Shown here in pieces: positions 1 through 39,011 of a DNA stretch of 64,000 nucleotides. A program made the translations under genes and the position numbers. The stretch covers positions 62,001 through 126,000 of the forward strand of contig JBBHKE010000417.1 in the NCBI GenBank assembly GCA_037447655.1. Reading direction: 5' to 3'. Below the pieces are notes generated by a model. It was not told where the DNA came from, ran no database searches, and saw nothing but the letters and a program-made list of their open reading frames with translations. The DNA comes from Zygnema cylindricum (Eukaryota; Streptophyta; Zygnematophyceae; Zygnematales; Zygnemataceae). Position 1 is the stretch's first letter. Every line of letters begins with the position of its first letter.

Positions 1-206
1 GAAATGCAAACTCAAATGGTCGCTATGATCAAAGACCAGTTTGCTGCCCTTATGGCTCAAATGAAACCGCCAACTCAACTAACTAGCATGGATCATATAG
101 CTGTCCATCTTCCCACGCTAGCTAGTTGAGTTTTGCGAGATTTAACCATCCAAAAGTGAGCAACCACGTTTGAAAAGGGGACAGTTGATCACAATCGTGA
201 GAGTAA
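1..206 (+). pseudogene. Gag-like fragment of the Gypsy element
   Basis: Frame 1 opens at the window edge and reads about 42 codons rich in Met, Gln and Ala before a stop near 127, as in the helical tail of many plant Gypsy Gag proteins. After the stop the reading frame is lost. The last five bases (202-206, AGTAA) are the target site duplicated by E1 and recur at 6468-6472, so this piece continues at 6473. The Gag call rests on composition and position only; no zinc knuckle is visible here. Confidence 0.4.
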
Positions 207-365
207 TGTTGAAAAAAAGGTATTTTGTAGTCTCTCTTGTGACCTTACTACAACCCTCATACTTGTCGTAGTCACAGAGGATCTGCAGGCAGCCAAGGCT
301 ACCTCTAACAGCTAAAGAGACAGACATATCACTAATATTGTTTTTGTAAAACATAGGCTGTCAGC

Positions 366-440
366 TATGGGAATTGATCCAAGGACCTTTAGATGATCCG
401 ATACAAAATAGCCGTGCGCCTTATCCAATAGGTCTTGGGG
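366..440 (-). other. tRNA-like block in E1 5' LTR (antisense)
   Basis: Read on the minus strand it has an A-box-like TATTGGATAAGGCGCACG followed about 40 nt later by GGATCAATTCC, two mismatches from a B box GGTTCAAATCC. The 3' LTR copy is at 5682-5756. Stems are degenerate, so this is not a functional tRNA gene. The same kind of block is found in the other Copia LTR families here. Confidence 0.55.
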
Positions 441-955
441 AATGATTCACGTATATGACACGATATTTATTTAAAGATGTACGACGCCGGATATTCCTTT
501 CTAAACAAATTACGCGACATACCGGTTCGCACGAAATCGGACCGCACCAAATATCCGAATCGACATGTAATTTCGACGGACGAAATCAAATGTTCGGATC
601 TGATCGAACGCCTCACAGTGGAGCCGGAGCGCCGGAATAGAAGTTTGGCGGTTTGCGAACCAGATGTCGGCGGATGACACGTGGCAACATATGGTTGGAC
701 AGCGAATATTACGGGAGGAGCAACTACGGCTCTAGAACTGACACGCGTCAGCGGACCGGCCATGCCGTACTATGGTCGTACAAGAAGTACAGCATTACCT
801 GTACCTTCTTGTACTTTACAGTTATATGGTTGGTCTAGTACCTTAAAAATAGGTATAGAGAGGTAACTTAAGACTAAGAATATATTTGGTTTTTCAGCCT
901 CTCTCCGAGAGTGCACCTGTATTTATGGACCAACTTTAGTCAGCCATAACTTAAT

Positions 956-1057
956 GCTCAGGTGGGCAAATTCAATGATTCTTTTTGCTGCGGACTCAGG
1001 GGAGTCCAGGCTACACAGGGGTGTAGTTGGTTAGAGTTTTTGCTTGCCAGGTTGGCA
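956..1057 (+). promoter_or_regulatory. Four conserved hairpins in the E1 leader
   Basis: H1 GCTC/GGGC (956-967), H2 GGACTC/GAGTCC (992-1007), H3 CTACAC/GTGTAG (1011-1026) and H4 TGCCA/TGGCA (1045-1057) lie 75-180 nt upstream of the gag ATG at 1132. The same series occurs near the end of the other Copia LTRs. H3 changes in both arms between families (CTTCAC/GTGAAG in B). I infer a structured RNA leader; its role is unknown. Confidence 0.6.
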
Positions 1058-1131
1058 CTTATTGATTTCCAGGGTCAAAATTGCAAATATTATCCTAGCG
1101 GCTTCATATAAGCTAGACATTCTGTGGACCA

Positions 1132-2290
1132 ATGGAGGTCACAGAGTTTCAAGTTATGGGCCCACCCTCTACGGTGCCAATTTATCATGGAACAGGGTTC
1201 ATTTGTTGGGAAACCATGATAAGGGGTGCACTAGTTGAAAAACGGCTATTGGGCATTGTGAGTGGTCGTGTGCGTCGGCCATCCGCAAAATTGGGAGTTC
1301 CACCAGGGTTTGGAGGATCTCGGTTCACAAGAGGATCTGCGAGGGCACGGGCGGAACAGGATGTTGGAGAGAGCATCGTGTCGGACATAGGGAAGGAGAA
1401 GGGGAAGGAGAAACTTACACCGATGCTTAGTAGATCAGTTTTGGCAGGAGGTGTTCAAAAAACCGAGGCTAATGATAGTGAAATATGGGATTTCAACAAT
1501 ACCGTGGCGACTCATTTTATTCTCGGGCGTCTCACCTAGGCAGTGGCTACACCTCATCTTCATGTAGACAAAGCGGACGAGTTGTGGGAGGCACTTGTCA
1601 ACATTTACAAGAGTGGTACGATTCAGCAGCAAAAGCTGGCAGATTAGAAGGTAGGGGCTTATGGGTACAAAAGGGGAAAGATGTTAGATTTTTGTAATGA
1701 CTTGGCCGGGTTATTTATGGAGTTAGAGAGTGCACGGAAAAAGGAGACCGAGAAAGAGAAGGTGAATGTTGATAAAACTCCCAGATGATTATGAAAACAT
1801 TGTTAACAGGGTTCAGGACTTGCCAGATCATCGATGGATTTGGAACTCCGTTGTGGGAATTATTTTGGTTCGGGAAAACACAATTGAGATTCGTAAAGGA
1901 GGAAAGAGTGTTCAGGCATTGGCTGCTGGAACTAATTGGGGAGATAAGGATTCCAAGAAACCTTATGGAAACTTTGGTGGAGGGGGAAGAGGAAATTAAT
2001 CGGAAGGATCTAGATCGAGGTCTCCGAAGGGACTTTGTCACTTTTGTAAGAAGCCGGGACAATTCATGGCGGAGTGTACTAAACTGACAGAGTTGAGATT
2101 GAAGGAGGAACAGGTCGAAAAACCTGCCGCAAAGAAAAAGAAGGCATTTTGTGGCAACACAAGTCATCGGAGAGGACTCCGATGAGGACGATGGAGAACT
2201 CCTCCTCAACGAGAAGCTGGAGGTGAAAGGTGAGCCGGAGATTCCAATGAGGCAAAAGTGTGCTTTCAGTGGAGTAAAAGAAGCTCCTGA
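1132..2290 (+). pseudogene. gag: E1 gag (broken)
   Basis: The start ATG at 1132 is inside the LTR, 20 nt before its end, and the frame crosses the PBS. The N-terminus has the F-G-x-G-F-x-x-W-E block typical of Copia Gag (UBN2/DUF4219-like), then a low-complexity Lys/Glu/Gly linker. An in-frame TAG ends the first reading frame at 1539. Homology continues in other frames through the helical capsid part to a CCHC zinc knuckle near 2037-2080 and an acidic Asp/Glu tract near 2170-2220. At least two frame changes and several stops separate these parts, so no intact Gag can be made. Confidence 0.85.
1152..1166 (+). other. Primer-binding site of E1 (half tRNA-iMet type)
   Basis: AGTTATGGGCCCACC directly follows the LTR end. 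It matches the complement of the plant initiator tRNA-Met anticodon arm (GGUGGGCCCAUAACC) at 14 of 15 positions rather than the acceptor end. This implies priming from a cleaved 5' half of the tRNA, as known for Drosophila copia. The PBS is also codons 7-12 of gag. Confidence 0.8.
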
Positions 2291-5200
2291 AGAAGGATGG
2301 ATTATTAATTCAGGAGCCTCTATGCATATATATAGAGAAAAAACCATTGTTTACCAAAATGAGAAATATCCCTACTGTAGAGATAGAGTATGGGGATGGG
2401 GGAATAGTCACCACTAATTTAGTGGGATCTCTGGATCTGAGAGTCTTGCTTGATGGAAAGGCATCCATAGTCACTTTCTGTGATGTTTTTTTTATCCCAA
2501 AGTTGAACAAGAATCTTATCTCTACGTCGGTCTTAGATGATAAGGGTTTTGAGACTACTAGTAAGAAAGGAGTCTTTGTTGTTAGCAATGAGAATGAAGT
2601 GTACTTTACATCTGAAAAGGTTAGCCAAGGAATGTTTAGGCTAAATTTGAGTAATGGAAAGACGAGATTTTATTATGCTGGTGTAAGTGATTTGATGATG
2701 TGGCATAAAATATTGGGACATGTGCATCTAGATAGATTAAAATAAATGAAGAAAATGGGTGTAGTTAAGGGCATACATTTTGGAGATGATGAGACTTTGG
2801 ATGATTGTAGTGGGTGTGCTCAAGGAAAAGCTCACAGATTGCCTTTTCCAAAAGCTGCAACATATAAGGGTGAAAAGGTTTTAGATTTGGTTCACACTGA
2901 CTTATGGGGATCGGCCAAAGTGCCATCAGTTGGAGGGAAAAGATTTATGCTTACTATCACTGATGATTGGTCTAGATTCTCTCGAGTATATTTCTTGAAA
3001 AAACAAATCTGAGGCTTCTAAATCATGGAGTGAAAGCTTCATGAGACACCTATAAAGAGAGTGAGAAGTGATAATGGGGGGGAATTCACTTCTAAGGAGT
3101 TTGAGGATTACTTAAAAGAGGAAGGGGTTCAACATCAAAAGACTGTCCCAAAGAACCCGGAGCAAAATGGTGTAGCCGAGAGACTAAATCGGACATTAAG
3201 TGATAGTGCCCGTAGTATGTTGAGGGATAAAAAAAAAAGGAAATGTTTTTGGGCAGAAGCTATGAATTGTGCCAACTATCTCAAAAATAGAGTCCTTACC
3301 TCAGCTGTAAAAGGTCAAACACTTTATGAAAGATGGACCGGGAGAAAACCTAACATATCACACTTAAAGGTGTTTGGAAGTCAAGTGTTTAGTTTAAACA
3401 CAGAAAAATCTGATAGGAAGTTAGATGCTAGAGGAAAGCCGGGATACTTACTTGGGTATGATGAGAACGTAAAAGGGTATAAAGTTTATGATCTCGGTAG
3501 AGAAGACATAATTCTAGTAAAACACTTGGTAGTTATGGATGAAGGAAAATCCATAGAACCCTTTAAGTATACTAAACCGGTTAGAAAAAGAATTGAACCC
3601 GAAAATGAGTTAGATGCAGATTCTACTAACTAAACTCCGGTTCAGCATGACCGTGCAGAGGAAGAGAAAAATCTGACCGAGAGTGACCCTCTTTTGGAGT
3701 CACATCTTCCAATTCAAACCGAGGAAGTAAACGAGAAAATACAGGAAATGGACGATGAACGACCGGAGATGGACTCCACGGATAGGGGAGAAGGTGAAGT
3801 TGTTCGGAGGAACCCGAGATTACCCTCGTTCCCGCGTCAGAATTTGAAAGAGGAAGGAGAAGCAGCAAGAGACTTCAAGAGAGACAAGTGAACAACAAGG
3901 TAACTAAGCTATCACATTTGAGCGAACCCCATACTTACTCAGAAGCAGTTAATAGTCCGGAATGTGGTAGATGGGTGACAGCTATTAATGATGAGATGGC
4001 TTCCATTATGGAAGCAAACACTTGGGAGTTGGTGGATTGTCCTCCGGATAGAAAACCAATAGGGTGCAAGTGGGTATTTAAGTTGAAGCTCAATCCAGAT
4101 AACACTATCGAGCAATACAAAGCCAGATTAGTGGCGAAGTGGTTCACACATAAGGAGGGAATCGATTATGAGGAGACTTTTGCTCCAGTTGTTAGATTCC
4201 CCTCCGTCCGGATTCTACTTAGTCTTCGGCAGCGAAAGACATGGAAGTGCATCAGATGGACATCAAAACCGCTTTCTTACACGGAGAATTGGAAAAAGAG
4301 ATCTTCATGCGACAACCTGAAGGATTTGTGGAGAAAGGAGAAGAAAACAAGGTGTGCAGATTGATAAAGTCCCTTTATGGACTAAAGCAAGCTCCACGCC
4401 AATGGAACAAAAAGTTGGACAAGTTTTTGACAAGTTTGGGATATATCCGGATCAACTCGGATCATTCCATCTACTTATTTGAGGATGAAGAAGGTATAGT
4501 TTTCATTGCCATATATGTTGATGATTTGCTTGTTTTGAGTAAATCAATGGTGAAAATTAATAGATTGAAAAAGGATCTAAAGAGTAGATTTGAAATGAAA
4601 GATTTGGGGGAGGCAAAATACATTTTGGGAATTCAAATGGAGAGGGATAAAGAAAAGAAAACAATTAGACTAACTCAAAATGAAGCAATAAGGAATATGC
4701 CTGAAAAATTTCAAATGGAAAAAGCAAATAGCTGTACGACTCCAATGGACCTAAAGAAGGGAAATGAGGGGAGCTCAGATGAGGGAGTCTTGATCTTGGA
4801 TAATAACTAGGACTTGAGGAAAGCAAGTTCATGCAAACTATTCCGTAAAGACAGGTTGTCGGTAGTTTGATCCACTTTATGAACTGTACTCGTCCTGATA
4901 TAGTTGCAGCTGTGGGAGTATTAAGTAGGAGTCTGAATGATCCAGGGAAGAAAGATTGGGAAGCAGCCAAAAGGGTCATGCGGTATTTGGTAAGAACAAG
5001 AGATTTGTGGTTGCATGTGGGTGGGGATAACACTGACATCACTTCTTCGAGTGATGCCTGTTATGGGGATGCTTCGATGAGGAGGTGTACTTCTGGGTAT
5101 ATGTTGTATGTTGGGAATGGGGCTTGTTGTTGGAGCAGTAAGCAACAAAAGGTGATTGCTCAGTCCAACATGGAGGCTGAGTATATGGCCTCTTGTTCTG

Positions 5201-5508
5201 CTGTGAAAGAATTAATGTGGGTGAAATCTTTGCTTCAAGAATTGGGATACATGAAGAATGGAGTACAAAAGATATTTTGTGATAATCAAGCTTCGATTGC
5301 AATTGCAGCAAGCCCTAAGCATCATTTTAAAGCAAAACACATGGATATTCGTTTGAGCTTTGTTACGGAGAAAGTTGAGAATAAAATCATTAGTTTGGAA
5401 TATAGACCAGATGGTGAGATGGTAGCAGATATGATGACTAAACCGGCTCCTTCTCCTAAATTAATATTTTGTAGGGAGAAGTGTGGACTAAAGCAAAAGA
5501 TAGACTAG
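2290..5508 (+). pseudogene. pol: E1 pol: protease, integrase, RT, RNase H (broken)
   Basis: The protease motif near 2305 reads NSGAS where the family has DSGAS, so the catalytic Asp is lost. Integrase follows: HHCC finger about 2700-2820, first Asp at 2899, second Asp at 3070 and Glu at 3160. A small deletion near 3010-3030 removes residues between the first two acidic residues. The RT starts near 4035 and carries YVDD at 4514-4525. RNase H covers about 5050-5400, and the frame ends at 5508 after a K-P-x-P-S-P-K-L tail shared by the families here. Breaks include a stop at 2724, a stop at 3633, frame changes near 3890 and 4230, and a stop at 4810. Confidence 0.9.
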
Positions 5509-5521
5509 AAAATAAAGGGAG
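5508..5521 (+). other. Polypurine tract of E1
   Basis: GAAAATAAAGGGAG directly precedes the 3' LTR (TGTTG at 5522). The same AAATAAGGGGAG-type tract precedes the other 3' LTRs here. It would prime plus-strand DNA synthesis. Confidence 0.8.
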
Positions 5522-6467
5522 TGTTGAAAAAAAAGATATTGTGTAGTCTCTCTTATGACCTTACTGCAGCCCTCATACTTGTCGTAGTCACTGAGGACCT
5601 GCAGGCAGCCATGGCTTCGTCTAGCAGCTAAAGAGACAGACAGATCACTAATATTGTTTTTGTAAAACATAGGCTGTCAGCTGTGGGAATAAATCCAAGG
5701 ACCTTTGGATGACCCGATACAAAATAGTCGTGCGCCTTATCCAATAGGTCTTGGGGAATGATACACGTATATGACGCGATATTTATTTAAAGACGAACGG
5801 CGCCGGATATTCCTTTCTAAACAAATTACGCGACATACCGGTTCGCACGAAATCAGACCACACGAAATATCCGAATCAACATGTAATTTCAACGGACGAA
5901 ATCAAATGTTCGGATCTGATCGAACGGCTCACAGTGGAGCCGGAGCGCCGGAATAAAAGTTTGGCGGTTTGCGGACAAGATGTCGGCGGATGACACGTGG
6001 CAACATATGGTTGGACAGTGGATATTACGGGAGGAGCAACTACGGCTCTAGAACTGACACGCGTTAGCGGACCGGCCATGCCGTACTATGGCCGTACAAA
6101 AAGTACAGCGGTACCTGTACCTTCTTCTACTTTACAATCATATGATTGGTCTAGTACCTTAGTAATAGGTTTAGAGAGGAAGCTTAGGACTTAGAATATT
6201 TTTGGTTTTTGAGCCTCTCTCCCAGAGTGCATCTGTATTTATGGACTAACTTTGGTCAGCCATAACTTAATGCTCAGGTGAGCAAATTCAGTGATTCTTT
6301 TTGCTGTAGACTCACGGGAGTCGAGGCTACATAGAGGTGTAGTCGGTCAGAGTTTTTGCTTGCTAGGGTGGCACTCTTTCATTGCCAACGTCAAAATTGC
6401 AAATAATATCCTAGAGGCTTCATATAAGCTGGACATTCTGTGGACCAATGGAGGTCACAGAGTTTCA
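5522..6467 (+). repeat. E1 3' LTR
   Basis: Pairs with 207-1151. It carries the tRNA-like block at 5682-5756 (minus), the constant-loop stem-loop at 5564-5604 and ATGGAG at 6448, again 20 nt before the LTR end. Confidence 0.93.
5564..5604 (+). promoter_or_regulatory. Constant-loop stem-loop in E1 LTR
   Basis: CTGCAG (5564-5569) and CCTCA (5571-5575) pair with TGAGG (5592-5596) and CTGCAG (5599-5604). The loop TACTTGTCGTAGTCAC (5576-5591) is almost identical in the LTRs of B and C, whose stems are built from different bases. Confidence 0.6.
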
Positions 6468-6472
6468 AGTAA

Positions 6473-6930
6473 ACAATCTAGCACTCATCTTCCATTATCA
6501 TTTTCCAAAGAGACAGTAACTAATTTGCCTTAAACAGCTACCACCATCATGGTGGAAGCACCCACTATGCTTGATCGCTCTATTTAGGACAGTCATAGGG
6601 TTAACGAAAGATTGTGCATTTTATCTACTATGATTTATGATTCTCCCAACCCTAAAACTAGCGTCTCCTCCATCCCATCTGTAGCATGACAATTATAAGG
6701 TTAAAGAAAGATTGTGCATTTTATCTACTATGATTTTTTATTCTCCCAACCCTAAAACTACCATCTTCTCCATCCCATCTATAGCATTATAGGCTTTACA
6801 AATGAACCGTAATTTTTACGCTCCAGGCCTATCTCTATCGACGAGCGTAGTTCTCTTGACCCACACGTTAGTTTTCTAGATAACGAGAAGGGTGCATTTT
6901 GAGTCAATGGTGTTAACTCGTCATTACCAC
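6473..6930 (+). pseudogene. Degenerate Gag/linker region of the Gypsy element, with tandem duplication
   Basis: No long frame is open. Two direct copies of a block of about 100 bp (roughly 6587-6685 and 6697-6797, both containing GATTGTGCATTTTATCTACT) show a local tandem duplication. Past 6800 a readable frame leads toward the protease. Most likely this is the Gag-protease linker, but no domain is recognisable. Confidence 0.4.
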
Positions 6931-6932
6931 TT

Positions 6933-7604
6933 ATGGACACAGGTGCAAAACCGATTATTTTTGGGTCATCTTTTGCACTTAAACTAGGGCTGACGGCACA
7001 TAAACTTCAGCCTACTGCCACACGTTTACTCACTTCATTGGGAACAACCGAACCAGTTTTGGGCATTACAGAGGATCCACTCTGTTTTAGGTTTCAAAAT
7101 GGTACACAATCTGAGTTTGCAGAAGTATGTGCTCAAGCATTGGTCACCAAATGTAGTGATTTCGAGTTTTTAGTGGGGCAAAATATGATTTTCAAAGTAG
7201 GAGGCGGCGATGACATGTACAATCAAACATTTTTAAACCGTCTTACCAATTATCCTGAAAAAAAAAATTGCCTCCCTCTAATTTCAACACGACAACCCAT
7301 ACCCATTATGGCTCACGCTACCCGATATGTCCCTGCCTATTCCGAAAATTCGGTGGGATTTGAAATTTTCCATTCTCTATACGCAAAGGAAATTCTGCCC
7401 AACAGTCGCTCTTTGCCTGAATTTTTTGATAACCCAGGTTTTATTATCGATTCTCGCGAGTTGGATCACATTTACAAACACACACTTCAGATTTCTTTAT
7501 CACGAGTTCCACCTCCTCCTCTCATTTGTATAGATCCTTCCGGTTTTCTTCCCATTAATTGGAAACCAATTCAGCTCAACCCTCATCAAGATGGTCTGGT
7601 CATT
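6933..7604 (+). pseudogene. Gypsy aspartic protease plus linker
   Basis: An open frame of about 224 codons begins near DTGA (6936-6947), the active-site signature of retroviral-type aspartic proteases, followed by hydrophobic segments and a downstream G-x-x-x-L-L region expected for this fold. The frame continues for about 130 residues beyond a normal protease before a TAA at 7605. Immediately after this stop, in the same frame, is the DLFGG motif of a DNA methyltransferase. Protease and methyltransferase therefore appear to have been one polyprotein. Confidence 0.6.
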
Positions 7605-8671
7605 TAAGATCTATTTGGAGGTATAGTTACCTCTCTACTCTCATGCCTTGGCAACGGATTACTTATCAAGCACTACTACTCGATCGACATTGACCCCAAA
7701 CAAGTCACTGTTATCTTTTACACGGACAATATCCACATATTTTTCCCAAATCCACCTTTGCTCACATGCGTATAGCCTAACCTCAAGATATTCGTTTGAT
7801 AAGCAATCAACACCTTTTTGATGTAGAACAAATCGATCTTCTCTTTGCCGGTTGGGAGTGTCACGGCATGTCACGAGCAAGCAAAGGTCTCGGCTTGGCT
7901 GATACCCCCACTAAAATATTCATTGAATTACTTCGTATCATACATTTTCTGCAATCATTAGATTCATCATTGGGATATATTATGGAAAACGTGGTAGCCT
8001 ATTACGATCCTCGACATACACTGTTAGCTGATTACAAGCGGATAAAAACATTAATTGGTCCTCCTCTTATCATTGATGCCGCTCGTCACGGTTCTTTAGC
8101 GCATTGGGTCAGATCTAAATGGACCTATTTGATTGATATTGGTCGCCTTCGAGAAATAAATCTTTCGATCAGACCCATTTTTTTAGATATTCAGACCGCA
8201 TTTTTGCCTTTTCATAAAATCCAAACATGTCTTCAGCCTGATCACACGCCGAATTATAACGTTAACGTCCTGGGTCAACCACTCGAAGTTCTCCCCACCT
8301 TAGTGTCTTATCCACACTCTCACGCATTTTCCGGCGATGGGTCCGGCTTGCTGAAAAATATTCACACAAGCGGCCTAGATGAGCCTACAACCATAAAATA
8401 GTAACACCTTATGCATTTCCTTCCCAACACTACAGTTGCCCAGCCCCTCACAGAACGGCAGCGGTGCATCATTTTAGGTCGTGTCATGGACCCTCAATCA
8501 CTGTCATTTGTCTTAGGCCTTAGATTTGGAGCACGTCGTTACGTACTAACCCATCCATCTCAACCAGCTAGAGGGGTAGTGCATTATCAATTTCTAAACA
8601 CATACCTACACGATCTTCTACCACCTTTAGACAAACACCTTCTCAGTTTTTCCTCTTTCCATCCCCTATAA
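7605..8671 (+). pseudogene. C5 cytosine DNA methyltransferase domain inside the Gypsy polyprotein (broken)
   Basis: The conserved motifs of C5 cytosine methyltransferases occur in order. Motif I is DLFGGI (7608-7625), the SAM-binding loop. An acidic SIDID segment near 7678 fits motif II. Motif IV is GWECHGMSRA, with the catalytic Cys codon at 7859-7861 (usual form PCQ or PCN). Motif VI is ENV (7985-7993). Motif VIII is ARHGSLAH..VRSKW (8081-8122), then a target-recognition-like stretch, then RQRCIILGR..DP (about 8455-8500), fitting motifs IX-X. Breaks are a TAA at 7605, a frame change with stops near 7745-7795, and a stop at about 8400. The enzyme would transfer a methyl group from SAM to cytosine C5. 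Related domains are known in charophyte and dinoflagellate retrotransposons. Family assignment is strong; subfamily and activity of an intact copy are not determined. Confidence 0.8.
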
Positions 8672-8880
8672 AACCTTTTCCTAATGTCACAATCTATGAT
8701 TTCTTAAATCCCACTCATATGTCATTGTCCATTCCAGCTTATATTGCTGCTCAATCTGCTCCTCCTAGTCACAGATCAACATCTCCTCACTAGATTGCAG
8801 CCTTTCCCACTCGTAACTTGTATCATTTGACAAATTGTTTACAAAAAAAACTTGTCAATTACTCTTTAGGTCAATCGCTC

Positions 8881-9316
8881 ATGGCAGACGAAGAGCATGC
8901 TTTTACACAGGCCATGGAAGCGATGACAATTAAAAGTTCGGAACCTCCGAAATGGAAATTTGGGGATAATCTCTCTTAGTGTGAACATGATTTACTAAAC
9001 AAAGTGATTCTCTATAATCTGAATGCTTTCGCTTTCTTTATGAATGACTTTGGTCGTCATACAACTTACAAAATGTCTATAGATCTCGAAGAAGCTCGTC
9101 CCATTTTCAAGCCAAAACACCGCTTATCCGAAACAGAATGGGAAATAGTGGACCAACGTTGCGCTGAATTGGAGGAAGCTAGCCTCATTTATCGGTCGGA
9201 CTCTACTTTTGCAGCACCCACTGTCATGCTTTGAAAATAAGATGCCGAAGGAAACTTTACCGATCATCGAATGCGCGACAATTAGCGTGAACTCAATTCT
9301 AGACCTATACAAGACC
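8881..9316 (+). pseudogene. N-terminal part of Gypsy reverse transcriptase
   Basis: A frame from ATG at 8881 reads a short linker and, with a stop near 8979, the start of a Ty3/Gypsy RT. It has the FGRHTTYKM segment, then LSETEWEIVDQRC, then S.FAAPTVM, and DAEGNFTDHRM with RELNSR before the E2 LTR cuts it at 9316. Two stops around 9233-9240 and one near 9285 disrupt it. The YxDD catalytic site is beyond the break. It lies downstream of protease and methyltransferase, which fixes the element's domain order. Confidence 0.75.
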
Positions 9317-10350
9317 TGTATAAATTAAAGGTTATTTCAGTATTTTCTAGGTTTGTAAATTGCAAAAAACAAGCAGAGGCAGTTTGAGTCTAACTCCTCT
9401 CTCGAGCTTCCTCACTTTTCGCAATAACTGAAAGTTGGAGAGGGAGATAAAACCATGGCCGCCTATGCTATCACGACGGGGATAGACATTAAGTTAGTAT
9501 ATTTACCAAAAAAGATCTTGACGGACCCAAGATTTGAACCTGGTACCTGTTGTCCGTCAAGGTGGCCGGTAGCCGATTACCATAGCCAATTAGTTTAAGA
9601 TCAAGGTTAGAGAAAATATGGTTTGGTAGCTATTTAGATGATAACACGTAGGCTATTTTATTTAACACGATATTTAGACATAGTTAGAGTTTGTAATGTA
9701 CGGCGTACGAAAAATCCAAAACGGATACCGTGCATCTTGTTTCGAAGACGAAACAAATATCGCGCAAGTATTTATGACGGCCACGATTGTAATATGGCTT
9801 AATCGGACGGCCACAAAGCATGCCGAGATCACGAAATATGTTTTTGGCAGTTTGCACTCGACGTCACATCAATTGCCACGTGGCACAATCACATTGGATT
9901 ACGGAATCTCCGAGGATTACAGAAACGAATCCAAAAGTGACATCTATCGACTTGTTGGCCATATCGTACAATGGCCGTACAGAAAGTACACCGGCACTTG
10001 TACCTTTGTGTACGATACAGTATTATGATTGGTGCTATACTTCAAAAGATAGAGTTTTAGGGAGAGATATGACTTGGAAAAATTTGATAGATTGGACCCT
10101 CTCTCCCAGAGAGCTTCTGTACAAAAGGTCAATTGTGACCCTTCATAACTTAGTGCTCAGTGGAGCAAATTCAGATATTCTTTTTGTTTTTGACTCAAGG
10201 AAGTCTTGCCTTCACAGGGGTGAAGGTAGTCAGAGTTTTTGTCTGCCACAGTGGCGGTTATTCTTGCTGAAACACAAAGGTGTCAGGGTTATCCTATTGG
10301 CTTCGTAAGAGGTGCCTACTCCGAATATCTATCGAGGTCTCACAGTTGCA
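9317..10350 (+). repeat. E2 5' LTR
   Basis: 1034 bp from TGTATAAATTAAAGG to CACAGTTGCA. Similar throughout to 51290-52354 (element A). It ends with ATCGAGGTCTCACAGTTGCA: the conserved start position 20 nt from the end holds ATC rather than ATG. The leader hairpin H3 is CCTTCAC/GTGAAGG here. Confidence 0.9.
9514..9604 (-). other. tRNA-like block in E2 LTR (antisense)
   Basis: On the minus strand, TTAAACTAATTGGCTATGG (A-box-like) is followed by GGTTCAAATCT, one mismatch from a B box. It ends in a GACGGAC/GTCCGTC-type stem. The homologous block in element A is 51511-51600. Confidence 0.55.
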
Positions 10351-11018
10351 GGTTATGAGCCCACCATCTAGGGTGCCCATATTCAATGGAGCTGGCTTCA
10401 TATATTAGGAAAGTATGATGACAAAAGCTCTATGTGAGAAACAGTTTTGGGGAATAGTGAGTGGATGGGTGAGGCGTCCATCAAGTCTTGGGATACCTCC
10501 AGGGTTTACAGGAGGAAGATTCACTAGAGATGCAGATCCATCTTTTACGGAGGAGACAAAGGAAGAGGAGGTGGTGGAGAAAGGAAAGGAGAAGGAGACA
10601 ATCACACCAATAGCAACCGGTTCGGCATTCATGTCACCTATTCCGAGGAATGAGGAGAATGATATGGATACTTTGGACTACAACAATATGACGGCTAAGC
10701 ACTTCATCCTCCGCCATCTTACTCAAGGGCTTGCATCTCCTCATTTCCAAGTAGAGAGGGCATCTGATCTTTGGGTGGCTCTCATAGAGATGTACCGAAG
10801 TGGTACGATTTAGCAACAAAAGTTGGCTGATCCTAAAATTAAGAAGTATGTATACAAAGGGGGAAAGATTTTGGATTTTTGCAATGAGCTTGCTACACTT
10901 TTCATAGAACTAGAGAGTGCTGGAAATTATTTAGTGAAAAGGAAAAGGTTAACTGTTTACTGATGAAGTTTTCCGATGAGTTCGAGAACAAAATCAACCG
11001 TGTGCATGACTTGGCGAA
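10331..11018 (+). pseudogene. gag: E2 gag (truncated)
   Basis: The Gag frame enters from the LTR (ATC at the usual start position) and runs through the PBS into a Copia Gag N-terminus (F-N-G-x-G-F-I-Y), with a TAG at the expected Trp near 10407. A long frame from 10415 then encodes LWE-like and GIVSGWVRRPSS motifs, the Lys/Glu linker and the RHLTQGLASPH helix region, stopping at a TAG near 10812. Homology continues in the next frames to about 11018, where the deletion joins it to LTR sequence. There is no zinc knuckle. It is closest to the Gag of A and B. Confidence 0.8.
10351..10365 (+). other. Primer-binding site of E2
   Basis: GGTTATGAGCCCACC, 14 of 15 matches to the tRNA-iMet anticodon arm complement, directly after the LTR. 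Confidence 0.8.
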
Positions 11019-12328: not shown

Positions 12329-13140
12329 CACTGTCAACAAAAGGTTGAGTCCGGCAGGACTCGAACCTCCGACCGGCAGAGCAAGGCGTAGCCGTTAGCT
12401 CTAGATAGTCTGTCGTAGAAGTCCGTTAGGATACATTAGGTTTGGAAAAAAATTAAACATTGTTACGTTTATGAATTTGATTAACGGAATGATGAACGAA
12501 GGAACATAGAACCAATTACTATATAGTGCGAACATCATCTCGCATGAAAACAAATCAATCGGACATTTGTTTTTGACGGCGGACATTTAATGTCAGATTT
12601 AATCTGACAGTGTATATCACTGCCAAGATCGCGGAATGGTCACTTTGGCGTTTATAGATGTGGCATGACATGGCGCCACGCGGAGGGATGACATTTGGTC
12701 GCAGGAATTCCAGCCAACGTAAGGACAAGTTAAAAGTGGACACGGGTCCACTTAATGGCGTTGCCGTTCATAGGCCGTACATAAAGTTCACCGGCCATAG
12801 TATTTTTCTGTACCCTACAGTGATCTAATTGGTTCGTACTTCAAAAGATAGGGGTTGCGAGAGGGATTTAGGACTTAGAGAATTTGGTAGATAGGTACCT
12901 CTCTCCCTTTCAGAGTTTGTATAAACTTGGCTTTTTGCGGACTTATAACTAATCGGCTGGTTGGCCGTTTTAAGAGATTTTGTTTAATACGGACTCAGGG
13001 TAGTCCAGGCTGCATAGTGGTGCAGTCAAACTGTTATTTTGCCTTCCTGGACAGCAGTGGTTGTGGCTTGAAGTGGGTTAGATAAATAGTATATAGAGGC
13101 TTCCTGTATTCTGTGGTCCTATAGAGGTCACAGAATTGCA
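12328..13140 (+). repeat. G 5' LTR (5'-truncated)
   Basis: Matches the reverse complement of I1 LTRs from their ~190th base to the end, finishing CAGAATTGCA. The start position 20 nt from the end is ATA (ATAGAGGTC) instead of ATG. Confidence 0.85.
12341..12420 (-). other. tRNA-like block with a perfect B box in G LTR
   Basis: Minus strand reads GAGCTAACGGCTACGCC, then GGTTCGAGTCC, which matches the Pol III B-box consensus RGTTCRANYCC exactly. A GTCCGGCAGGAC-type T-arm surrounds it. The best preserved of the LTR tRNA-like blocks. Confidence 0.65.
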
Positions 13141-17341: not shown

Positions 17342-20241
17342 TGTTGTCCATAGCCTATTTCAGCCATGGATTACTCACAGAAGACACCCACAGACTACCC
17401 CAAACAACTGTGTTTCAGACAGCGCAGATCACTCCACAATACTTAAAAGTAATTCAAACAACACCAGTATACATTATATATTGGACAATATAACTTCCCA
17501 AAATTAGAGCCAGATACACAAAGGATTCCACGAGATAGGAGCACCAGAGTTTCCCAAAAACAGTTGACAACTTACCTACTTAGCGAGGTAGACTCCTCAC
17601 AGAATTCTACATGAAAATTAGAACAGAATAAAACTACACACATATATATTTTCTATATCATACAACATCCACAAAAACTTTCATATCAAGATATAAATCA
17701 GAGTGATGACACTGACACGTTAAATATGCAGAAAAACAGTCTGCCATAACTTTGATAAACTCAGCTGATTATAAAATAAAACTAAGTCCTACAAGTTTAT
17801 ACTCACAAAGTTATCTACTGAGACCTAAACTAATAAAATAACTACACGTATAATTAAGTACTCTACTAAATAAAGACAATGTACGTCAACGGTACGTCTA
17901 CTGTACCAGAGGTATGTCCAAACACTAATTATGACTTTTATCTAATTTCACTATTGTAACACTAAAAGCTAATTCACTACATACAAATTATAGTTGTTTC
18001 AGATATTTACAAATACAAGCCGTACATGAATTGTGCAACTTGCTTAGTCAGCAATTAGTGAATCCGTCCAAACGACTATAACAGTCCGTACAAGTCAACT
18101 TCGAATTTGCGGATCGCCGTTTGTCAAGCACGTGTGCATTTTCGCCACATTTGCACTCCCAGGAGTTCCGGGGCTTCATTCCACTTTGTACGGACTCTAG
18201 CGTACGGAAAAGGAAGAGGAGAATCAGCCGGATCAGATCTTTCTATTTTCATCCTGGAACACTACGCAATTTAGTTCACCTTAAACGGAGGTCGAACTGA
18301 GGAGTTGGTCCGGTGCAAAGTGTCTGATCCATTATAGTGTGTGTTCTATGTAGCTCTAGTAGAGGGATACCTTAGAGAACGACACGTAACATTTGAGATT
18401 ATCCCGTAGATCTTACTGTTAGCTGTCAGTATGATGTTAGTTCAGGCCCAACCACCGGGCAAAGCATTTATGACGTTGGGACAAAGTTAGGCGGTTTCAC
18501 GTCAAGTCAGAACTTTGTTTCCATTTTGTGTGTTATAGGAGGACCCTCGGCCGCTAATCCAGCCGGGACCAGTCGTCTAATTTTTAGCCCTGAGTGTAGT
18601 ACAGTCTGTTTTGTCTTATGTAAGTACGATAACAATTGCTGGCCGCTGATTGGCTTGTCACATTGCTTTGACTATGGAACTTGCAGTAGGACAAACTCTG
18701 GTTGTATAAGGCACATGGGGCCGAAGGAGACAGGTTGCTTTTTTAGTAATGTCTCTTGAGAAAACCCCCAGAGAATTAAATCAATCTTTCTGTTGGAGAA
18801 CGGTTGCATTGTGTCGTTGACTCTATTGCCATCTTTGTTTTGGATTGTCTTTTGTGGAGACCGTAGCACGGGTGGGTAGTTGGCACTATCTCCTCTTTGG
18901 GCGGTTTGGACTTTCGCTGTTTGAAACTAAGAAGAGTCTTGTCGGATCCTTGCGGTGGAACCGGGAGGGGTGAGGGAGACTCATACCGGTCTTCGGGGCC
19001 ATTGGGAGAGGTTTTCTTCTGCTGAGTTTGGTCATCGTTGCACTCCGGGGTATGTGAATTCGCTTCACCATTATCATTCATTTCTATCTTTAATTCCATT
19101 CTCTGGGGCAAGGTGATATTGTTTAATCTGTAAAGCCGATATTTGTTATTTCTATATTTCTGCGTGGGAGTTATTTGCACACTGTTGTGGTCATCTTTGG
19201 GTTTGTCTGGAGTTTTTGCGGAAAGGATCGGACGACTCTCATTTCCTTCCTATTCTTTGGAGAGTAGCTGGGAGTGTGGCATTTAGTGGGCTTCCAGCGG
19301 AGTAGCACCAATCTGGGGGGGGGGTACAGGGTACCTTTTCTTTTCCACTCCATTCCTCCTTACTATCTATGCATATCCCTTGGGGGGGGGTAATGAACAG
19401 AGATGGGCATTATCATGGATCCAAGGAAGCATCAGCATTTGGGGTGGATTGCAGGTTTCTCATGCACACCTCCTTGGACATATAACCTGGACCTCTCGGT
19501 TCCCAGGCACGCTCGACACGTTAGATGTAGAGTAAATCTTATCTGTGGATGACACGCGTCCAGTAACTTTGTCCCAATGTGGTCCCACTTCGATTCGAGT
19601 CTGTCAACTCGATTCGTATCCTCCGTTCGTTTTTATCGCGTGTGTCAGCATAGGTCACATAAGTCCAACTGAGTGTGGTCGTGTGGTACGAAGCACCTGA
19701 GTGCGTACGGCGTGCTTCTTCACTTGTGGTCCAACGTGAATCGTGTCTGTCGACAAGATTCGAATCAACGGTCATTATGATAGATCGTACCATCTATTTC
19801 CTTTAAATGTAATTCAGATTATGTCCGTCCGATTATGCGAATCCATTTGTTCGATGTACGACACGTGTAAATGGTTGTAGGGACTTTTCCGTAAAACCTG
19901 TATAGTCTTCGAATGCCGACACGTGTCGTTGCAAAAGTACAATATACTCAAGACTACTTCTGCTACTGTCATACTATATATGGTAAGTATTACATCTTGC
20001 TTCCTTAAAATATTCTAAGTCCTAAAAGTCTCCGCTCACAGCCTCATCTACTGAGGACTAAAGCTTTCAAATTACAACACTCCCCTAAAACTTTAGACTC
20101 GGTACCTCACTCCGTCTGCAAATCTTTCTATTGTAATGAAAGTATATACAAAAGCAAGAACTTAGAAAATATTCAAAGTTAAAACAAAATTCCCTCTCAC
20201 AACTTCTACTACTAAACATCCTAGACTTTACAAAAACAACG
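17342..20241 (-). repeat. X1 3' LTR (long form, 2.9 kb)
   Basis: Matches 22248-23715 except for an extra ~1.4 kb at 18119-19520. The gag start codon ATG reads on the minus strand at 17365-17367. Confidence 0.75.
18119..19520. other. 1.4-kb GC-richer block present in only one X1 LTR
   Basis: Bounded by CGTT on both sides: the short LTR has a single CGTT at 23026-23029. This is the footprint of a microhomology deletion from the right LTR, although a TSD-less insertion in the left one cannot be excluded. The block has two G10-like runs (about 19315-19324 and 19382-19390). Its longest frame is a minus-strand 134-codon Ser/Pro/Lys-rich frame (18776-19180) without recognisable domains. Composition differs clearly from the AT-rich neighbours. 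Confidence 0.5.
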
Positions 20242-20312
20242 CTCCTCCTAAGTTTTGGATGTTTTAGCTTTAAGTAATCATATACTGGTAAATCTAATAT
20301 TTTATCAAATCT

Positions 20313-21424
20313 TTAGTCACCATACCAATCACTCCAATATTTATCCCGTTTAAACAATGATTTTTCCCATTGAAGGTGTCGGTAATTCCACCTCAAAAAT
20401 GTATTTTCCGGTCTTTTGTGTTGCCGCCTTTGGAGTTGGTTTCTTCTCCAACTGGTCTTTGTTAATATGTATCTTCTTCTTTTTTTCTTACTACATTCTG
20501 GTCTCCTTATAGAATTTATACTTCTCTTATAGTTTGTCTTCCCACTAACTCTATAACGTGTGGATTTCCTCACTGATTTTTTGTATTTTTCCGTAGATAT
20601 GCCACACCCGTTAAGTGTATGCATCCTGAAGATTTTTATTTTGATCCCCTTTTCATTTAGCTGCTCTTTCCACCTTTTAATAGTCTTTCTTAATTTCCAT
20701 ATTCCTCCAATATTATGACCTTTTCCGCACCCATAAACTTCTTTTCTGAGCCTCATTTTCTTAACAATTTCTACCGGTCTTTCTCTGAGTTCATTAATTT
20801 TTAAATCCACATTCTTTTCCACTTCTGATGATAATTCCCCATCTTTGTGAGTTCTCCATTTCTTCTCTCATCATCTTCCTCATTTTCTTTACTTTTCTTG
20901 TAATCTTCTCTTTGCTGTTCTCTAAGTTTTGTTTTCAGTTTAGTATTCTCTATTTCTAAAGAATGTTTTTCAACCAAATTTAAGTTTACTTCTCTAACTT
21001 TCGTCTCTTCAAGAAACCCTTTCCTTTGTAAGTCATTCACACACATCAATTTATCACAAGAAATAGTCTCAAAAACCGAACCTTTTTCACTCTCTTTTTC
21101 TTCCACAATATCTTCGGTGACCACACTATTTTCATTTTCATCCAGTTCAACTTTTGGGTGCCCTTCACTCCCGTCAACTCCTCCTATTTTAATCCCTTCT
21201 TTTCGTAGGTTTATATCACTCACTAATTTGTTATTGGAAACATTGCGAGTGGACAAATCCTTTTCTGTTACCTCTTCCTCCACTCCATTTTCTGTGGCAA
21301 CAAATTTCCCCTTTCCTTCCTCTTTCACCATATTCCGAAAAACATAGACAGTCGGAAAGTAAACGAATTCGTCGACGAAAGGAGTAAGCATTTTGTCATC
21401 GGTCGAGTCTTGTCTGTCACTCAT
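20313..21424 (-). pseudogene. X1 downstream region of unknown function (two frames)
   Basis: A 207-codon frame (21424-20801) is strongly acidic, rich in Glu, Asp, Asn and Lys, and its last 80 residues look like a coiled coil (ENTKLKTKLREQQRED). It overlaps by 22 nt a 169-codon frame (20822-20313) that is very basic and ends rich in aromatic residues (FLRWNYRH, KYWSDWYGD). I recognise neither. They occupy the place where pol would be. Both carry Met starts, but the overlap and basic/acidic switch suggest that one long frame was shifted. Function unknown. Confidence 0.45.
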
Positions 21425-21499
21425 AAAAGCACTTGTTTCCTTCCTTATTGAGGGTCAATCTCGGTGGTTGTCCCATCCATCTCTAAATTTTCCTGTAAC

Positions 21500-32523: not shown

Positions 32524-32690
32524 TGTAGAAATTAATGGTTCATTAAATATTTTCAAGGTCTAAAATGAAATACAAAAAAGAATCCGAGGCAGTCTGCCTC
32601 TAACTTCTCAATTTAGCTCCGACACTTGTCGCAATCACTGAAGGTGGAAGAGGGAGCTTCAGCCATAGCTGCTTGTGCTCACCAAAGAGA
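32524..32690 (+). repeat. A 5' LTR (first ~165 bp only)
   Basis: Matches 51290-51475. The join to gag lies within AGAGAGACAAAGGA, a sequence nearly shared by LTR (51470) and gag (10553), so the deletion used about 9 bp of microhomology. Confidence 0.8.
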
Positions 32691-33590
32691 GACAAAGGAA
32701 TGGGAGGTGGTGGACAAAGGAAAGGAGAAGGAGACGGGCATACTAATAGCAACCGGTTTGGCATTTATGTCACCTATTCTGAGGAACGTGGAGAATGATA
32801 CCGATACCTAGGACAAAAACAATATGGCAGCAAAACACTTCATTCTCCGCCATCTTACTCAAGGGCTTGTATCTTCTAATTTGCACGTTGAGAGGGCATC
32901 GGATCTTTGGGTGGCTCTCCTAGAGATGTACCGAAGTGGTAGAATTCAGCAATAATAGTTGGTTGATCAGAAAATTGATGCATATGTATATAAAGGGGGG
33001 AAGATGTTGGATTTTTCTAATGAGCTCGCAACACTTTTCGTGGAGATAGAGAGTGCTGGATAGGTTGAAACTGAAACCATGAAGGTTAATTGCTTGCTCA
33101 TGAAGTTACCAGATAAGTTGGAGAACATAGTCAACCGTGTGAAGGACTTGTCTGACTCAAGGTGGATATTGAATTCAATGGTAAGGATGATTCTAAATCA
33201 GGAGAATACGATTGAGATCCGCAGGGGAGGAAAGAGTGGGCAAGCCTTCGCAATTACAACCGATTGGAGGAACAAAAATTCTAGGAAACCGGTCGAAAAT
33301 TACAAAAGGGGGGGGCAAAAAAATCAGACCGACGAGGTAAGACCAAGGGCTCCCAAGGGTTTGTGCCATTTTTGTAAGAAACCAGAGCACTATATGGCGG
33401 AGTGCACTAAGTTAATCGAGCTGTGGTTAAAAGAGGGGCAGATTGGTGGACCACCGAGAGGAAAGAAAAAGGCCCTTGTGACACAGGTACATGAGGCGGA
33501 ATCCGAGGACGGGACAATGAGCTCTTATTGGATGAGGAGTTGGAGGCGCAAAACAAACTCGAAATTTTACGAAAGCAAAAATGTGCTTTC
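32690..33590 (+). pseudogene. gag: A gag (5'-truncated, broken)
   Basis: Begins in the Lys/Glu linker (EVVDKGKEKE). Capsid helices follow with RHLTQGLVSSNLHVE, a TAG near 32808, TAA near 32953 and TAG near 33061. From 33079 a long frame carries LPDKLENIVNRV, IEIRRGGKSG and an intact CCHC knuckle (CHFCKKPEHYMAEC, 33366-33407), then the acidic tail, with a frame change near 33515. Very similar to B gag. Confidence 0.85.
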
Positions 33591-34721: not shown

Positions 34722-35770
34722 TGAAACTCTGAGACCTCCATAAGTCCTCAGAGTGGACAGCTTCCAAGAAGCCTCTAGGATAATCCTGACCCCTTTGTGT
34801 TTAAGCAAAAATAACTGCTACCTTGGCAGACAAAAACTCTGACCAACTTCACCCCTGTGAAGACAAGACTCCCCTGAGTCGATAGCAAAAAGAATCTCTG
34901 AATTTGCTCCCTTGAGCAGTAAGTTATGGAGGGTCAAAGTTGACCTTTTGTAAAGAAGCTCTCTGGGAGAGGGGGTCCTATCTTCTAATTTTTCTAAGTC
35001 CTATCTCTCTCACAGACTCGATCTACTGATGTACGGAACCAATCAGAATTGAGTTCCGTACGTAAAAGTACAGCTGCCGGTGTACTTTATGTACGGACAT
35101 TGTACGACATGGCCAAAATGTCAACACATGTCAAATCCGGATTCGGTGCTATAATCTCCGGAGATTCCACAATCCAACGGAATTTCGCCACGCGTCATCC
35201 GATGTGGCGATGGCCACAAACCGCCGAAATCTTCCTCCGCGATCTCGCCGCTAATCCCGGCCGTCCGATTAAATTCGGCTTTAATCGTAGCCGTAATAAA
35301 TACATGCGCGGTATTTGTTTCTTTTACGAAACAAATGCGCGGTACTGATTTTTGTCCGTACCGTAAGTCGTACATTATATATTACTGGATCTATGTATCC
35401 CGTAATTCATTTCAGTTAAATGGTTTATCGCTTGTACACATATATAAATAATTATCAAACTATATGCTAGGTAACACTACCGCTAGATTAAACGGTTAAG
35501 GCTACCGGCTATTTCGTGTCTGCCGGCCGGCAGGTACAAGGATCAAATCTTGCCGCCGGCACATACATTTTAATTAAATAAATAAACCCTAATATAAAAT
35601 TCCCGTAAACCTCACGATAGGCAAGGTAGCCATGGCTCTAGCTTCCTCTCCAATTTCTCAGTGACTGCGACAAGTTTGAGAGTTGGAGAGAGAAGTTAGA
35701 GATAGACTGCCTCGACTTCTATATTTCTTTTCAGACCTAGAAAATACTAATAAAACCATTAGTTTCTACA
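34722..35770 (-). repeat. B 3' LTR
   Basis: TGAAACTCTGAG to GTTTCTACA. The purine tract follows as the minus strand of CTCCCCTTATTTTCTA (35771-35786). Contains the tRNA-like block at 35480-35562. Confidence 0.95.
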
Positions 35771-35783
35771 CTCCCCTTATTTT

Positions 35784-38700
35784 CTATTCAATCTTTAATT
35801 TCAGACCACACTTCTCCCTGCAAAAAATTAGCTTAGGGGAAGGCACAGGTTTGGTCATCATATCTGCTACCTTCTCACTATCTTGTCTGTACTCTAAACT
35901 GATTATTTTGTTTTCTACTTTCTCTCTAACAAAGCTGAGTCTGATGTCCATGTGTTTGGCTTTAAAATGGTGTTTAGGATTGGCAGAAATAGCAATTGCT
36001 GCCTGATTATCACAAAATATTTTCTGCACACCACTCTTAAGGTGACCAAGCTCACCAAGCAAAGACTTGACCCACATCAATTCTTTTACAGCAGAGCAAG
36101 AGGCCATATACTCAGCCTCCATGGTGGACTGAGCAATAACCTTTAGCTGTTTGCTACTCCAACAGCAAGCCCCATCACCCACATATAATACATATCCAGA
36201 AGTACATCTCCTCATCGGAGCATCACCATAACTGGCATCACTCCAAGTAGTGATGTCAGTATTCTCCCCACCCAAATGCAACCATAGATCTCTAGTTCCT
36301 ACCAAGTATCTAAGGACTCTCTTAGCTGCCTCCCAATCCTTCTTAGTGGGAGCATTTAGACTTCTACTCAGCACTCCTACAGCTGCAGCTAAATCCGGCC
36401 GGGTACAATTTATAAAATAGATTAGACTTCCCACTACTTGCCTGTAAGGAATAGTCTGCATGAACTTCTGTTCTTCAGGAGATAATTCCTCGTCTAAGAC
36501 TATGACTCCTTCTTCCTCACTCCCCTCACTTCCCTTCTTCAATTCCATTGGAGTTGTACAACTATTAGCTTTATCCATTTGAAATTTTTCAAGCATGTTC
36601 CCTATTGCTTCCTTTTGAGTCAATCTTATAATTTTTCTTTTTCGGTCTCTCTCTACTTGAATTCCCAAAATATATTTTGCTTCCCCCATATCCTTCATTT
36701 CAAATCTCCCCTTAAGATCGGTTTTCAGTTTATTAATTTTTTCCATTAATTTACTTAAAACAAGCAAATCATCAACATAAATTGCAATAAATATAACACC
36801 TTCCTCGTCTTAAAAAACATAGATTGAGTGATCTGAGCTGATCCGAATATATCCTAGACCGGTAAGAAACTCATCAAGCTTCTTATTCCACTATCGGGGC
36901 GCCTGTTTCAAACCATAAAGAGATTTAATCAGCCGGCATACCTTACTCTCCTCTCCTTCTTCAACAAACCCTTCGGGTTGTCGCATGAAGATCTCCTCTT
37001 CTAATTCTCCATGCAAAAAGGCTGTTTTGATGTCCATCTGGTGCACTTCCATGTCTTCCGCCGCTGCTAAACTGAGAAGTATGCGGACGGAGGGAAATCT
37101 GACCACCGGGGCAAAGGTTTCCTCGTAGTCAATTCCTTCCTTTTGTGTAAATCCCTTTGCCACTAATCTGGCCTTGTAGCGCTCGATTCTGTTATCTGGG
37201 TTCAGTTTTAGTTTGAAAACCCACTTACAACCGATTGGTTTTCAGTTAGGTGGACAGTCCACCAGCTCCCAAGTATCGGCTGCCATAATTGAAGCCATCT
37301 CCTCATTGATGGCTGTCTTCCACCGGTTTCTTTCTGGACAAGTCATCGCCTCTCGATAAGTTTGAGGTTCATCTTGATGAGATAGTTTAGTTACCTTGTT
37401 ATTAACCTGTTTTTCTTGCAGTCTTTTGCTACTTCTCCTCCCTCCTTCAAAATCTGAGGCCGGAATAGATGGTTCTCGTGGATTCTTTCGAACAAACTCG
37501 GCTTCTCCCCTATCCCTTGATTCCGAATCAATTTCCACCACCTCTTCCGCTTCGAGTAGAGTTGTCACTGGAGTTTCCACAGCCGAGTCCTTTTCGGTCT
37601 GATTTGTTCCTGCAAGAATGTCATCGTCTCTAAAACCTGGATAGTTAGGAAGGTCAAAGTCATCAGAATTTTCTGACTCAAATCTGATTTTTACTGACTT
37701 TGTATATTTGAAGGGATCCACAGACTTTCCTTCATCCATAACTACTAGATGCTTTACTAAGATTATATCTTCTCTTTTTAGATCATAAACTCTATATCCT
37801 TTAACATCCTCATCATATCCTAATAAGTATCCCGGTTTTCCTTTAGGATCTAGCTTCCAATTGGACCGATCAGTATCTAGACTGAATACTTGACTGCCGA
37901 AAACCTTTAAATGAGATAAGTCTGGTTTCCGGCCTGTATATCTCTCATAAGGTGTTTGATCTTTTATAGCTGAAGTAAGAACTCTATTTTTGAGGTAATT
38001 AGCATAGTTCATTGCTTCTGCCCAAAACCTTTTTCCTATCTTCTTATCCGACAACATACTTCTAGCACTATCACTTAGTGTTCTATTTAACCTTTCAGCT
38101 ACCCCATTCTGTTCAGGATTTTCTGGCACTGTCTTTTGGTGTTGAACCCCATCTTCCCTCAAAAAATCCTCAAACTGGTTAGAAGTATACTCTCCACCAT
38201 TGTCACTCCTTACTCTCTTGATTGGAGTTTCATGGAGTTTTTCGCTCCATGCTTTATATTGTCTAAAACAGTCCTCAGCCTCTGACTTGTTTTTCAAAAA
38301 ATATACTCGGGAATACCGAGACCAATCATTAGTTATAGTCATCATAAATCTCTTCCCCCCCGGTGAGGGCACTCTAGCCGGTCCCCAAATATCTGTGTGT
38401 ACTAGATCTAGAAGTTTTTCTCCCTTGTAGGTGGCTGTTTTTGGAAAGGGTAATCTGTGTGCTTTACCTTGAGCACACCCACTACAATCACTTATATCAT
38501 CACTCTCACTGAACTGAATCCCTTCCACCACTCCCATCTTTTTCATCTCTATTAACTTATCTAGATTCATATGCCCAAGCCTCTTATGCCACATCATAAT
38601 ATCATGAACACCAGCATAATAAAGTTTCTTCGTTTCATTACTTAAGATCAGCCTAAACATCCCATGGCTACCTTTCTCAGCAATGAAATAGACATCCTCC

Positions 38701-39011
38701 TCAAAACTAGCAGTAAAGACTCCTTCCCTAGTGCTAGTGAAAAAACCCTTATCATCTAATACTGATGTAGAGATAAGGTTTTTGTTCAGCCCCGGAATAA
38801 ACAATACATCGGAGAATGTTAATATGGATGTCTTTCCTTCTACTAACACTTTCAGATCTACCGATCCTACAAGAGTAGTGGTGACTATCCTCCCATCCCC
38901 GTACTCTATCTCTACGGTGGGAATCTTTCTTATCTTAGTGAACAGGTGTCTATCCTTACACATGTGCATTGAGGCACCTGAATCTATAATCCAGCCTGCT
39001 TCACCTTTCAA
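35784..39011 (-). pseudogene. pol: B pol: protease, integrase, RT, RNase H (three stops)
   Basis: Long frame 39011-37242: protease DSGAS with intact Asp (about 38985), GDGRIVTT, HHCC finger (WHKRLGH near 38595, CSGCAQGK near 38485), integrase D (HTDIWG), D (SDNGGEYTS, near 38205) and E (EQNGVAERLNR, near 38110), then the acidic linker and the start of RT. It stops at a TGA where the family has Arg (37242). RT continues to a TAG at a Gln position (36891), then to a TAA at a Glu position near 36812, with YVDD at 36768-36779 intact. The last frame, 36767-35784, has the complete RNase H (D in SDASYGDAPMRRCTSGY, MEAEYMAS, CDNQAAIA). Apart from these single-base stops the domains look complete, so inactivation is recent. 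Confidence 0.93.

Follow-up and report, generated by a model that had tools for sequence, protein, structure and literature searches.

Layout and decay of the Ty3/Gypsy copy

A damaged retrotransposon coding region lies on the forward strand of the window (the whole 64,000-nt stretch of DNA analysed), where positions 6903–9316 contain, in this order, a possible retropepsin, a C5 cytosine methyltransferase, and a Ty3/Gypsy reverse transcriptase (RT), of which the N-terminal part is present. We consider it very likely that 6473–9316, and probably 1–206 as well, is the remnant of a single old Ty3/Gypsy LTR retrotransposon copy whose Pol included a Dnmt3-like C5 cytosine methyltransferase ahead of the RT, probably in the interval between protease and RT, and which later received two Copia insertions and decayed. 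The order and strand of these parts, the methyltransferase domain, the existence of a fused relative (the ENA protein P0002), and the decay of the copy are demonstrated.

The motifs named in the first-pass annotation were all located on the forward strand and in the order it gave: DTGA (6936), DLFGG (7608), WECHG, ENV, ARHGS, VRSKW, and RQRCIILGR. The region begins with a decayed stretch (6473–6902, +), which includes a tandem duplication of 100 bp (6588–6787, 90% identical) just 5′ of the possible Gypsy protease. The possible retropepsin and its linker span 6903–7604 in frame 0. The DTGA motif of this protease is present as annotated, whereas its domain identity is a weak match: PF13650 (Pfam) scores 15.4 bits in the 6903–7604 ORF (E 0.032), short of its cut-off of 24.3, clan_AA_DTGA (NCBIfam) gives E 0.24, and no aspartic protease is among the four solved-structure rows at E ≤ 10 for this ORF.

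The motif I piece of the methyltransferase (DLFGG, 7608–7772, frame 0) continues the protease frame in phase across one TAA at 7605, as had been noted, but the methyltransferase does not keep to one frame, switching from 0 to 2 around 7775–7781. Its catalytic part, with WECHG, ENV, ARHGS, VRSKW, and LPTLVSYP, occupies 7781–8398 in frame 2 and is supported by PF00145, a weak match to the structure of DNMT3A, and P0002. The C-terminal part (RQRCIILGR) follows in the same frame at 8405–8668, after TAG TAA at 8399–8404, with the P0002 match reaching 8521. The N-terminal part of the Ty3/Gypsy RT lies at 8938–9316 in frame 1. Stops occur at 7605, 7773/7778, 8399, 8402, 8669, 8977, 9232, 9238, and 9283, the last four within the RT piece, and the frame changes number at least two, the second (2 to 1) falling between 8521 and 8938. 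This Gypsy copy is dead, and the enzyme cannot be made from it.

A Ty1/Copia element (207–6467, +; RVT_2 E 2.6e-53) is nested in the Gypsy copy. Its LTRs (207–1151 and 5522–6467) are 91.8% identical across 949 bp, with ends TG...CA. A perfect 5-bp target duplication, AGTAA, flanks it at 202–206 and 6468–6472, which indicates that this Copia was inserted later than the Gypsy element and that its left flank (1–206, +) is expected to represent the 5′ portion of the locus as it stood before the insertion, perhaps Gypsy gag. The Gypsy copy thus predates this Copia, the LTRs of which differ by 8%. Pfam found no gag match in the 42-residue open stretch at 1–126 (+). That stretch, at the left end of the window, has a sub-threshold match to DUF4218 (E 0.027, 14.8 bits vs 27).

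A second Copia element, with the LTR start TGTATAA at 9317, truncates the Gypsy copy; its beginning (9317–11016, +) shows a 77.6% match to 41170–39455. No LTR or integrase of the Gypsy copy was found in the 64,000-nt window, the integrase being missing because the copy is cut off at 9316, and the ends of the copy appear to lie outside the window. Searches with P0002 and a second ENA protein, P0001, did not reveal an RT core, RNase H, or integrase of Gypsy type elsewhere in the window at E ≤ 0.01. The remaining matches to these proteins lie in the integrases of Copia elements (lowest E 6.6e-11), and a motif scan placed each of the four YxDD sites of the window in a Copia RT. The Gypsy RT piece weakly matches 32620–32781 (E 0.012).

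Copia coding sequence occurs in both orientations across window positions 1–64000, where 17 stretches (after merging) are related to Copia proteins encoded in the window itself. The Copia element at 34722–41170 (−), with long ORFs of 600, 379, and 341 aa, has LTRs that are 98.1% identical over 1049 bp; of the two LTR pairs examined, this is the younger (98.1% vs 91.8%).

The methyltransferase domain and its class

The methyltransferase recognised in the first pass is confirmed by Pfam, where PF00145 matches 7781–8398 above its gathering score (E 5.1e-6, 26.6 bits vs a cut-off of 22). PHROGs DNA methyltransferase families match from E 6.7e-6, and the NCBIfam model dcm matches at E 7.2e-5, under its cut-off. 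Taken alone, the 7608–7775 piece had no Pfam or solved-structure match, and the 8405–8668 piece no family match, its sole structure row being irrelevant (E 1.2). Protein searches with 7781–8398, by itself and with whole-Pol candidate lengths, gave no hit at E ≤ 0.001 in sets of 380 and 1078 candidates. The single-sequence fold of this part had a mean pLDDT of 32.

C5 methyltransferases carry PC in motif IV and ENV in motif VI. Here, WECHG lies at 7853–7867 (+) with the Cys codon at 7859–7861, MENV begins at 7982 with ENV at 7985, and ARHGS, VRSKW, and RQRCIILGR are found at 8081, 8108, and 8456 on the same strand. This decayed copy has the catalytic Cys and ENV, with Glu in place of the Pro that precedes the Cys. 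The first-pass annotation took WECHG as the possible mark of a distinct subfamily. We rejected that interpretation, as it is one reading from one decayed copy, and the WECHG stretch is covered by neither P0001 nor P0002. The same substitution (ECH vs PCQ/PCN) could also indicate that the domain has lost its enzymatic function in this lineage and serves in nucleic-acid binding only. We find this improbable, given that the copy has decayed and yet retains Cys and ENV, that no relative spans the WECHG stretch, and that key residues are conserved, with Ka/Ks below 0.2, in KnitGypsy-Dnmt3 of Klebsormidium nitens according to the available text of de Mendoza et al. 2018 (PMC5890265).

Compared with solved structures, 7781–8398 matched 25 distinct sequences at E ≤ 1, all of them DNMT3A, DNMT3B, or DNMT3C, the best being a weak match to DNMT3A (E 0.0043). 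The methyltransferase half of P0002 gave a similarly weak result (best E 0.095), with DNMT3 in 14 of 15 rows at E ≤ 1 and a tRNA methyltransferase in the other. Phage C5 methyltransferases also match 7781–8398, with 104 records at E ≤ 1; among the 20 listed, the lowest E is 5e-6 (query residues 16–71). A further 26 plasmid records matched weakly at E ≤ 1 (lowest E 0.06 among 20 listed). Sequence comparison thus favours a Dnmt3-like enzyme, a class that is not proven because phage C5 methyltransferases match as well.

The phage matches, which are not clearly weaker than the match to DNMT3A, would fit an enzyme outside the Dnmt3 class that the element had acquired recently and independently from a bacterial, phage, or giant-virus source. 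We judge such a capture unlikely, though deserving of more weight than a loss of enzyme function. The solved structures matched by 7781–8398 at E ≤ 1 are DNMT3 exclusively, and the P0002 half aligns, if weakly, to DNMT3A motifs. In addition, no confirmed relative emerged from scans of IMG/VR (with the methyltransferase, the RT, P0002, a P0001/P0002 alignment, and a methyltransferase alignment) or from two scans of GTDB contigs, all of which required exact peptide patterns and may not include the genome of the window. Degenerate patterns for two guessed motifs returned 14 IMG/VR stretches (7 + 7), none of them matched by a piece of the window at an E under 0.07, and P0002 had no phage match at E ≤ 1e-5.

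Fusion of the methyltransferase to Gypsy Pol in a relative

The RT motifs FKPKHRLSETEW and DAEGN are found at 9106 and 9241 (+). A search with the RT ORF at 8980–9231, using whole-Pol candidate lengths, matched two of seven candidates, the Gypsy Pol proteins P0001 (57%, E 7.9e-20) and P0002 (59%, E 3.4e-19). Across 8938–9333 the match is 50.8% to P0001 (E 4e-35) and 49.2% to P0002 (E 1e-32). P0002, 1260 aa in length, also matches the methyltransferase: its residues 4–168 align to 8030–8521 (40.6%, E 3e-30), spanning both stops at 8399 and 8402, and its residues 239–370 align to 8938–9333, collinear with the former and on one strand. The bit scores are 122 for the methyltransferase and 129 for the RT, against a best P0001/P0002 match of 27.7 bits in 20 resampled control windows of equal average dinucleotide make-up. 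Together with the PF00145 match, this collinear match on the same strand bears out the association of Gypsy element and methyltransferase proposed in the first pass. The Gypsy RT it had named stands as an N-terminal part with 49–51% to Gypsy Pol, but the window does not include the RT catalytic core. The RT piece stops short of that core and therefore has no Pfam match, and it has no solved-structure match either.

Both ENA proteins contain RVT_1, RT_RNaseH, an integrase zinc-binding domain, the rve core, and a C-terminal PHD finger; their RT has the motif YIDDV, and their integrase shows DD35E spacing. In P0002 the C-terminal half of the methyltransferase, Gypsy RT, RNase H, and integrase form a single ORF. 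This protein starts inside the methyltransferase domain, without the catalytic half, and Pfam sees no methyltransferase in the half that it has; P0001 starts downstream of the expected methyltransferase position. The catalytic half beside an RT was seen in the broken window copy alone.

Because P0002 unites half of the domain with Gypsy RT, RNase H, and integrase in one ORF, comparison of the sequences supports the methyltransferase as a component of the Gypsy element. An alternative is that a host methyltransferase gene, a possibility raised in the first-pass annotation, or a retrocopy of one merely adjoins a Gypsy fragment. The differing reading frames and the lack of an LTR or integrase of the Gypsy copy in the window would agree with such a juxtaposition. 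It nonetheless appears extremely improbable, since in P0002 this half of the methyltransferase is joined to Gypsy RT within one ORF, in the order seen in the window, and since only one TAA lies between the protease and the motif I piece, which share a frame.

The PHD finger follows the integrase at residues 970–1014 of P0001 and 1202–1246 of P0002. All eight metal ligands are kept, with the pattern C-x2-C-x11-C-x2-C-x4-H-x2-C-x14-C-x2-C in both proteins, and the best solved structures for the P0001 finger are the PHD fingers of CHD4, Lid, PHF12, BAZ2B, and WSTF. P0002 carries the finger in addition to the methyltransferase half. In the window copy itself a PHD finger can only be presumed, because the copy is cut before that part. 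We tentatively suggest that the Gypsy lineage comprising the window copy and the two ENA proteins combines a methylation writer, in Pol before the RT, with a PHD histone reader behind the integrase; the PHD finger would steer each new copy to a chromatin state, and the element's own enzyme would methylate it. We found no description of this pairing of writer and reader in the open literature searched, and a PHD finger attached to a Gypsy integrase did not appear in the available open-access text of PMC7472088, PMC2836005, PMC4120745, PMC3286476, PMC7602945, PMC12477816, and PMC5890265.

Known elements, CpG content, and possible role

Methyltransferase-bearing Gypsy elements are already known from algae, and the window copy adds one member, the closest known element being KnitGypsy-Dnmt3. 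As the available text of PMC5890265 describes it, that element has a Gypsy-type Pol with an intronless Dnmt3-related C5 methyltransferase in the Pol ORF. The arrangement is alike in P0002, where the C-terminal half of the methyltransferase sits inside the Gypsy Pol ORF, whereas the window holds only a broken copy with stops and shifts, and the likeness is one to the published description rather than to the sequence. The two also differ in the PHD finger of P0001 and P0002, the term "PHD" being absent from the main text of PMC5890265.

Other systems share single features. In Symbiodinium, SymbioDIRS-Dnmt3 and SymbioLINE-Dnmt likewise place a C5 methyltransferase in a retrotransposon, but these are DIRS and LINE elements with a tyrosine recombinase or endonuclease instead of the DD35E integrase of P0001/P0002 (available text of PMC5890265). 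Ectocarpus Gypsy elements resemble P0001/P0002 in ending their polyprotein with a chromatin reader, which is a chromodomain or Tudor domain rather than a PHD finger, and the text available for them does not mention a methyltransferase (PMC12477816). PHD fingers do occur in the transposon proteins of Ginger1-9_HM, whose Ginger1 transposases are related to Gypsy integrases (PMC2836005), and in ORF1 of CR1/L2 LINEs (PMC4120745); the former is a DNA transposon and the latter are LINEs, not LTR elements, and a methyltransferase is unmentioned in the text available for either. Published accounts also diverge, as PMC12344493, in its available part, assigns Dnmt3 to Copia-type LTR elements and to DIRS, whereas the 2018 paper (PMC5890265) says Gypsy.

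The first-pass annotation suggested that such an element might methylate its own DNA copies. For the window copy this is not supported: the enzyme cannot be made, and CpG is not depleted. The CpG observed/expected ratio is 0.82 at 6480–9316 vs 0.65 for the whole window, and 114 of 123 overlapping windows have a ratio no higher than that of 6480–9316. We therefore rejected CpG depletion as support for self-methylation. Undepleted CpG speaks against lasting CG methylation of the copy, or else the host does not lose methylated CG. The CHG ratio is lower at 6480–9316 (0.75) than in the window (0.88), a single comparison with the window average.

Retrotransposons that carry the very enzyme hosts use for silencing them pose a standing puzzle. 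The likeliest role in live relatives would be methylation of the element's own cDNA, as the available text of PMC5890265 proposes while leaving the role open. That text also reports CG methylation in yeast by SymbioDIRS-Dnmt3 enzymes and no activity there for KnitGypsy-Dnmt3, a result its authors judged inconclusive. A reasonable possibility, which we hold with some reserve, is that live members of the family produce the methyltransferase as part of Pol, that the enzyme would travel with RT and integrase, that it would methylate new cDNA before or at integration, and that the genome would thus receive a copy already marked. Another lineage, with PHD-bearing relatives, would offer one more setting for finding out which of the two is marked by the enzyme, the new copies or the host genome.

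ARAGORN found no tRNA in the window, and no Rfam match reached its gathering score there. Three ORFs of 156–217 aa at 18776–21454 (−) are without a credible Pfam match, and two tRNA-like stretches, perhaps SINEs, were seen by eye at 9520–9590 and 12340–12400.
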